Source: Roseibacillus persicicus (GTDB lineage Bacteria > Verrucomicrobiota > Verrucomicrobiia > Verrucomicrobiales > Akkermansiaceae). Taken from it: 64,000 bases of DNA. The position numbers and the translations under genes were made by a program. This document shows, piece after piece, positions 48,418 to 51,086 of the stretch. The stretch is taken from NCBI RefSeq assembly GCF_014651675.1, contig NZ_BMXI01000013.1, forward strand, positions 87,862-151,861, given 5' to 3'. Within the stretch, counting starts at the first letter, position 1, and the number at the start of each line of letters is the position of its first letter. The notes below the pieces were generated by a model. That model saw only the letters and a program-made list of their open reading frames with translations. It was not told the DNA's origin and did not search any database.

Positions 48418-48696
48418 ATGCGATTCTTCGAAGAACTCGAGTTTGCGCATCTCGCCCAGACCCGGGGTGAACGATTCATCATACGCCTGGTGGAAATGTA
48501 TGCCCGTTGGCGGGATAGCTCCTTGGTCGTCGCGGGGCTTTGGATGCTAATTTTCATCTTTGGCGGCAAAGATGTCCCTCTCTTTTTCGCCACATTGGCC
48601 ATGGTTTCTTTTTTCAGCCTTTTTCTGAGTCAGATTTGTCACACCGTGGTGAAGATTTGGCGCAGGCAGGACGAAGCGAATGGGAACGGAGTTTAA
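48418..48696 (+). CDS. Small membrane protein of unknown function
   Basis: 92 aa: a soluble helix (MRFFEELEFAHLAQTRGERFIIRLVEMYARWRD) then two TM helices (SSLVVAGLWMLIFIFGGKDV and LFFATLAMVSFFSLFLSQICHTVVKIW) and a charged end. No family is recognised. It follows the 105-aa gene by 24 bp in the same direction and precedes selD by 144 bp. ATG at 48418. Moderately supported by membrane topology and co-orientation. Confidence 0.6.
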   Translation: MRFFEELEFAHLAQTRGERFIIRLVEMYARWRDSSLVVAGLWMLIFIFGGKDVPLFFATLAMVSFFSLFLSQICHTVVKIWRRQDEANGNGV

Positions 48697-48840: not shown

Positions 48841-49893
48841 ATGAGTCGCGAGGATATCAAACGCCTGACCGAACTCTCATCCTGTGCTGGATGAGCGTCG
48901 AAGCTTTCCCAAGCGGATCTGACGCAAGTTTTGCGTGGTCTGGCTAATATCAATGACCCCAATTTGCTGGTCGGTTCCACCTCTTCGGATGACGCGGCGG
49001 TCTATCGTTTGTCCGATAGCCAAGCCCTCGTGCAGACCCTCGACTTCTTCACCCCCATCGTCGACGATCCTTATCAATTTGGCCAAATCGCGGCCGCCAA
49101 CTCGCTCTCCGATGTCTACGCCATGGGGGGGCGGCCCATTACCGCGATGAATATTGTGGCGGTGCCCACCGACGAGATTTCCTTGGAAACTGTGAACGCC
49201 ATCCTGCGTGGCGGGGCTGACAAGGTGGCGGAGGCAAATTGTGTGCTCGCCGGTGGCCATACTGTCCAGAACCCCGAGCCGCTTTATGGACTTTCGGTGA
49301 CGGGCCTCGTGCATCCCGAGAAAGTGATTTCCAACGCGGGTGGACGGGAGGGGGATGTCCTCCTTCTGACAAAACCACTGGGGACCGGAATTCTCTCCAC
49401 TGCGGTTAAGCGTGGGCTGGAAATTGGTGACCTGGAAGCAAGGGCGGCCAAGTTGATGGCCAGCCTCAATACCCCCGGAACCCCGGTGGCGGAGGCCGGT
49501 CTGACCACTTGTGGCACAGATGTGACCGGATTCGGTCTCTTGGGTCATCTTTTGGGAATCTGCCGGGAGTCGGGAGTGACCGCCCACCTGGATTCCAGCG
49601 CCATCCCGGCCATCGACTCGCGAGTTCTTTCCCTCATTGCGGAAGGTTGCGTCCCGGGAGGAACACGCAAGAATCTGGCAACTGCCGAGCCCCAGGTTTC
49701 GTTTGGTGCGGATGTTAGCGATGAGATGAAGATTCTCCTGGCTGATGCTCAGACCTCCGGAGGGCTCCTCTTGGCTATTGCCCCGGATAAGCTCTCTCAA
49801 GCGGAAGATATTCTGCATGAGGCAGGCGCTCCGATCGTGGTTCAGATTGGAAGCTTGCAGAGTCAGCAAGGTTCCAATGTGATCGTGAGCTGA
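48841..49893 (+). CDS. selD: Selenide, water dikinase, selenocysteine-containing (TGA at 48892)
   Basis: 350-aa enzyme making selenophosphate from selenide and ATP. From ATG 48841 the frame reads MSREDIKRLTELSSCAG, then TGA (48892-48894), then ASKLSQADLTQVLRGL and on into a complete SelD: DDAAVYR, VDDPYQFGQIAAANSLSDVYAMGG, LAGGHTVQ, TDVTGFGLLGHLLG, LADAQTSGGLL. In known SelD the residue at the TGA is the catalytic Cys or Sec (CAGCxxK-type), so the TGA must be read as Sec18. An ordinary caller would begin at 48931 and lose the whole active-site segment. It implies that the genome has the SelA/SelB/tRNA-Sec machinery, which is not in this window. In the same direction as the two small genes. 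Confidence 0.93.
48895..48937 (+). promoter_or_regulatory. Candidate bacterial SECIS hairpin(s) after the selD UGA
   Basis: Two foldings follow the TGA at 48892. (a) GCGTC (48895-48899) with GACGC (48921-48925), inner GCTT/AAGC and loop TCCC. (b) ACGCAA (48922-48927), loop GTT, TTGCGT (48931-48936), whose loop is ~33 nt after the TGA. They share bases so only one can form. Bacterial SECIS elements lie directly downstream of the UGA in the coding region and present a short loop to SelB; which of these, if either, is the true element cannot be settled by eye. Confidence 0.5.
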
Positions 49894-50300: not shown

Positions 50301-51086
50301 ATGTGTTCCCGCGTTCAAAAGGGAGTCCAGAGACCCGCTCTCTGGCCTCTCAATCGAAGTGTATTAGCTTGTCTTCTACCCGCTGTTTTCGCTCTTTCGA
50401 CAGCTCAAGCGCAATCTGCCACCGTCCAGATTGATTGGGGGACATCCACGGTCGCGCAAAAAATCATTACCAGTACTGGGGCGCCAATCAGCCAGCCCGA
50501 GTTTTCCATTGAGCTGGGAGCCTTCGCATTGGGTTTTACTCCGACGGCTTCGAATTACAGTGAGTGGGTCAACAATTGGATGGTTTTTGATGCCGTGACC
50601 TCCCCGGATACGGATACCAGCGGTGCGGGAGGGACTCAAGCCGATGCCTTTATTTCGGTGGGAGTGAACTCACGATTTGTCGGAACCGGGTTTCTGGAAA
50701 CCGGACAGACCTCGACTTCAGAAGACTCCAATGGCACCGACGTTTTCGCTGCCGGAGAACAGGCGTATGTTTTTATTAGGAACTCCGATACTCCTGATGA
50801 GAATGCCGAGTGGCTACTCTACACCAGTTCAGTGGACAACTCCTGGGAGTTCCCACAGGCCGAAGGGGGCCAATCCCAATTCCCTGCCACCTGGTATGTG
50901 TCCGAAGCGGACCAAGCCATCTGGGGTGCGGTCAATGGGACGGTAACTGGCGGGGGACCTCACACGGATACGAGCACTGACTTTGTGCTTCGAACCCATA
51001 CTTTTGTTCCCGAGCCGAGCTCGTTCTTCCTTTTATTCATTGGTCTCGGTGCCTCTTTGACAAGGCGTAGCAGGTCTCTTGCCTAG
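50301..51086 (+). CDS. PEP-CTERM sorting-domain surface protein
   Basis: 261 aa: N-terminal signal peptide (LNRSVLACLLPAVFALSTAQAQS), a ~190-residue beta-rich, acidic, Asp/Thr/Ser-rich body, and a C-terminal tripartite PEP-CTERM signal: VPEPSS, hydrophobic FFLLFIGLGASL, basic TRRSRSLA. Such tails are cut by an exosortase (EpsH/XrtA type) in bacteria that make extracellular polysaccharide; the exosortase is not in this window. Cargo function is unknown. ATG at 50301 is far ahead of the hydrophobic region (~19 residues), so the true start might be later. Same direction as the giant gene, 93 bp upstream of it. Confidence 0.9.
   Translation: MCSRVQKGVQRPALWPLNRSVLACLLPAVFALSTAQAQSATVQIDWGTSTVAQKIITSTGAPISQPEFSIELGAFALGFTPTASNYSEWVNNWMVFDAVTSPDTDTSGAGGTQADAFISVGVNSRFVGTGFLETGQTSTSEDSNGTDVFAAGEQAYVFIRNSDTPDENAEWLLYTSSVDNSWEFPQAEGGQSQFPATWYVSEADQAIWGAVNGTVTGGGPHTDTSTDFVLRTHTFVPEPSSFFLLFIGLGASLTRRSRSLA

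Follow-up and report, generated by a model that had tools for sequence, protein, structure and literature searches.

A selenophosphate synthetase gene with an in-frame TGA at its catalytic position in Roseibacillus persicicus, a probable selenoprotein gene with a CxxU motif

It was found that the selD gene of Roseibacillus persicicus has an in-frame TGA codon where the catalytic residue of selenophosphate synthetase is encoded. The gene lies at 48841..49893 (+ strand) of the window, the 64,000-nucleotide stretch of DNA analysed here, which belongs to contig 13 of a 5.28 Mb genome that is 97.5% complete. With a high degree of confidence, the selD product is predicted to be a selenoprotein in which selenocysteine (Sec) is inserted as residue 18 at UGA 48892 in a SelB-dependent manner, takes part in catalysis, and supports the supply of selenophosphate to both SelA and SelU. 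A selD gene that itself encodes a selenoprotein is a known arrangement; here it comes with a minority active-site motif that is common to the Akkermansiaceae family. The first-pass annotation had already claimed that selD is a selenoprotein gene with its catalytic residue at TGA 48892, and the reading frame, the alignment, the machinery genes and the conservation of the codon all agree with this claim. The CxxU motif, SelU and the further candidate selenoproteins described below go beyond what that annotation had pointed out.

When TGA is translated as Sec (U), the selD frame encodes 350 amino acid residues, with Sec at residue 18 and a terminal TGA stop codon at 49891-49893. The only internal TGA of the frame is codon 18 (48892..48894, + strand), in the context MSREDIKRLTELSSCAG-TGA-ASKLSQADLTQVLRGLANINDPNLLVG..., and the active-site segment quoted earlier, RLTELSSCAG-U-ASKLSQADLTQVL, matches the translation of 48841-49893. 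The frame is bounded upstream by a TAA at 48694. The start of the protein is conserved in relatives as MSREDIKRLT/MTREDIKRLT-like sequences. Gene calling with translation table 11 yields a truncated ORF (48931..49893, + strand) of 320 amino acid residues that begins with a TTG codon, and this ORF is devoid of the active site, just as had been foreseen for an automatic call from 48931. The 3′ arm of a hairpin described below opens with this TTG codon at 48931. Selenoprotein genes are frequently mis-annotated (PMC4561486, PMC13188914). The present result corrects one such annotation, since standard gene calling would miss the active site of SelD.

The identity of the product is clear. With Cys substituted for Sec, it scores 380.2 bits against TIGR00476 (cut-off 125) over residues 8-317, and it has the Pfam domains AIRS and AIRS_C. 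Among named SelDs, the one from Roseibacillus ishigakijimensis is the closest (85%), and further near matches are labelled Akkermansiaceae. The best match among solved structures is E. coli SelD (3u0o; E=1.2e-76), which is homologous over residues 4-349. In this alignment, U18 lies opposite Cys17 and K21 lies opposite K20, and the DDAAVY and TDVTGFGLLGH motifs are kept. In E. coli SelD, Cys17 and Lys20 are the residues that act in catalysis. The alignment with Cys- and Sec-SelDs that the first-pass annotation had proposed sets the TGA against the catalytic Cys. The E. coli enzyme shares the catalytic Lys and the nucleotide-binding motifs with the present SelD, but it has Cys17 and is therefore no selenoprotein. 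The known bacterial Sec-SelDs (PMC4561486) belong to the same enzyme family and share the catalytic Sec position, the in-frame UGA with a downstream hairpin, and the selA, selB and selC genes. They differ from the present SelD in that most sampled Sec-SelDs lack a Cys three residues ahead of Sec (CxxU).

Is the TGA codon conserved among relatives? At the internal codon, 30/30 loci read in the Akkermansiaceae family have TGA, as do 104 of the 109 loci read in total, the other five (5/109) having TGC or TGT for Cys. When 195 genomes of the family were searched, each full-length close SelD had one internal TGA, and two distant SelDs (45-46% identity) had none. No relative read has a frameshift at the site, which had been named beforehand as an observation that would speak against Sec. 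In the eleven codons preceding the TGA, the variation among family loci is 0.082, 0.066 and 0.489 at codon positions 1, 2 and 3, respectively. This third-position bias indicates that the codons ahead of the TGA are translated. The terminal stop codon of the family selD genes is TAA in 16, TGA in 8 and TAG in 5 cases, and it is codon 332 or 333 counted after the Sec codon. The interchange of the three codons suggests that TGA acts as a stop at the gene end and as Sec only at codon 18.

The genome has the genes for decoding UGA as Sec. The proposed search for selA, selB and selC revealed all three: selA (458.9 bits), selB (324.1 bits, a frame of 644 amino acid residues) and a tRNASec gene (59.6 bits) with the anticodon TCA assigned by ARAGORN. 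The absence of selB and tRNASec, which had been set out as a ground for rejecting the Sec reading, is thereby excluded. A gene for SelU, the tRNA 2-selenouridine synthase, was found at C3:354435-355346 (341 bits). SelU is not adjacent to selD in this genome; over the family it tracks SelD. Among the 195 family genomes, 63 have both Sec-SelD and SelB, 6 and 6 have only one of the two, and 120 have neither, while the corresponding counts for Sec-SelD and SelU are 68/1/8/118; the p-values of these co-occurrences are only descriptive because related genomes are not independent. The 12 genomes (12/195) that have SelB or Sec-SelD without its partner fit with incomplete assemblies. In six family genomes (G007, G034, G079, G125, G129 and G137), SelB and SelU were found and SelD was not, possibly due to assembly gaps. 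Two other family genomes (G160 and G100; loci L178 and L179) have a Cys-type SelD with the sequence GAGCGCK beside selU and lack selB, as expected if Sec-SelD requires the decoding machinery. These Cys-type SelDs branch separately in the SelD tree, and their genes were likely acquired laterally.

A hairpin at 48922..48936 (+ strand), ACGCAA-GUU-UUGCGU with 6 bp, is the predicted apical hairpin of a bacterial SECIS. It was assessed by RNA folding (z-score) and by pair counts (covariation) across relatives, in answer to the suggestion of the first-pass annotation that a SECIS be sought downstream of the TGA. The segment 48914-48944 folds with -11.9 kcal/mol (z=-2.97), and the spacing from the UGA to the loop G is 33 nt. 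The apical loop GUU opens with G, in agreement with the rule that a bacterial SECIS has a G in the apical loop (PMC1794560). Among 27 distinct relatives, the pairing is kept in 99.4% of cells and falls to 16-59% when the hairpin partner is slid. Two of the six pairs (2/6) vary on both sides in these relatives: G-C replaces the outer A-U pair in 5 sequences and the inner A-U pair in 8. The paired changes are located at codon positions 1 and 3. In the outer pair, the Thr codon ACG becomes GCG (Ala) and the Arg codon CGT becomes CGC; in the inner pair, the Gln codon CAA becomes CAG and the Leu codon TTG becomes CTG. Over a longer stretch of 49-54 nt, the folding energy was not better than that of shuffled sequences (z of -0.3 to -0.4). 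An extended lower stem (GAUC/GGUC) is present in the R. persicicus sequence and is not conserved in relatives, and it was dropped from the prediction. Thus, the claim is limited to the apical hairpin. Synonymous conservation over the hairpin (0.45) does not exceed that of other parts of the gene (mean 0.37, maxima 0.62) and is not counted as evidence, and Rfam gave no match at the gathering threshold over the window.

I found five further proteins in the same genome, by searching for AhpC-TSA and thioredoxin domains, that have a thioredoxin fold and an in-frame TGA at the position of the active-site Cys (C2:266277-266621, C17:109401-109757, C10:127622-127993, C3:38211-38501 and C16:156038-156277; loci L143, L144, L145, L146 and L138). 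One is of the peroxiredoxin type, with the motif TPGUIKQC (TxxU), and the others have the UxxC motifs GNWUPFC, SASWUPPC, SDTUPPC and SASWUGPC. The SASWUGPC candidate on contig C16 is encoded about 0.5 kb from the tRNASec gene. The motifs of the five have counterparts among the protein families listed from ocean metagenomes (PMC2398784). Together with SelD, the number of candidate selenoproteins is six, which is a minimum because the genome was scanned in part. Three PF00384 matches were considered as Sec formate dehydrogenases and rejected; they were read as NuoG-like, NapA-like and YdeP-like proteins, with active sites devoid of TGA. No AhpD-like protein (PF02627) was matched in this genome, and no readthrough TGA with a Cys/Sec redox motif was found in the window besides that of selD. 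The genome thereby documents, for a verrucomicrobial family, a full system of Sec decoding with six or more candidate selenoproteins. Literature searches, incomplete in coverage, yielded no description of a Sec-SelD from Verrucomicrobiota or of such a Sec system in the family.

Could the TGA be an ordinary stop codon? The gene might be broken by a nonsense mutation, or the TGA might be an error of sequencing, and translation would restart at TTG 48931 and yield a protein truncated at its N-terminus; the table 11 ORF of 320 residues is what this would look like. However, separately assembled genomes of the family have the TGA at all 30 loci, and protein-level selection acts on the codons that precede it. 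Moreover, the truncated form would have neither the catalytic residue nor the Lys, and its TTG sits within the hairpin. A broken gene is therefore extremely unlikely. Even closer to negligible is the chance that TGA codes for an ordinary amino acid throughout this genome, as it does in translation tables 4 and 25. Such a change would account for the readthrough in the selD frame, but TGA, TAA and TAG replace each other as terminal stops at the same position of the same genes, the readthrough candidates found are TGAs at redox active sites, and the genome encodes tRNASec, SelA and SelB.

It has been proposed that SelD is the single selenoprotein of some bacteria (PMC1794560). By analogy, the Sec system might exist solely for making a SelD that serves SelU. 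The presence of SelU, its tracking of SelD over the family and the lack of a Sec formate dehydrogenase among the three Mo-protein matches are in line with this. Nevertheless, five other proteins have a TGA at a thioredoxin-fold active site, so that the single-selenoprotein scenario of PMC1794560 is not applicable, and a system dedicated to SelD is very unlikely here.

Judging from the genomic evidence, the favoured reading, a Sec-containing SelD serving both SelA and SelU, would operate as follows. SelB carrying Sec-tRNASec (anticodon UCA) would bind the hairpin just 3′ of UGA 48892, and Sec would be inserted at residue 18. Located in the mobile N-terminal loop of the enzyme, Sec18 would then act as the catalytic nucleophile, and selenophosphate synthetase is expected to convert selenide and ATP into selenophosphate. 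SelA may use this product to make Sec-tRNA, both for SelD and for the thioredoxin-fold selenoprotein candidates, of which there are at least five, and SelU may use it for tRNA selenouridine.

The active-site loop has one more feature. SelD residues 15-18 are Cys-Ala-Gly-Sec (codons 48883-48894), and the Cys15 codon TGT (48883..48885, + strand) makes up a CxxU motif together with Sec18. A Cys stands at this position in every family Sec-SelD that was read (SCAGU, SCGGU or ACGGU). Among relatives outside the phylum, 4/73 have it, one of them with Cys instead of Sec. In the same class, G346 has Sec without the Cys (TSAGU), and G206 and G519 have CxxC. The family Sec-SelDs group with the class relatives in the SelD tree (support 100/100), and this tree requires 8 switches between Sec and Cys, of which well-supported branches force no fewer than 6. 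In ocean metagenomes, CxxU occurs in approximately 5.6% of single-domain Sec-SelDs, and CxxC occurs in all Ndh-SelD fusions (PMC2398784). The arrangement in the active-site loop is the same in those proteins and in the R. persicicus SelD, but the latter is a stand-alone SelD and its motif is found throughout one bacterial family. Cys15 and Sec18 might form a reversible selenenylsulfide, either for redox-switched selenophosphate synthesis or with Cys15 as a resolving Cys for selenium delivery, alongside the candidate thioredoxin-fold selenoproteins. I regard this redox role of Cys15 as a conjecture, and a rather doubtful one. The family-wide CxxU offers a ready comparison for the role of the extra Cys in SelD.

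Downstream of selD, an ORF at 50301-51086 encodes a protein with a signal-like N-terminal segment and a C-terminal VPEPSSFFLLFIGLGASLTRRSR tail that resembles a PEP-CTERM sorting signal.
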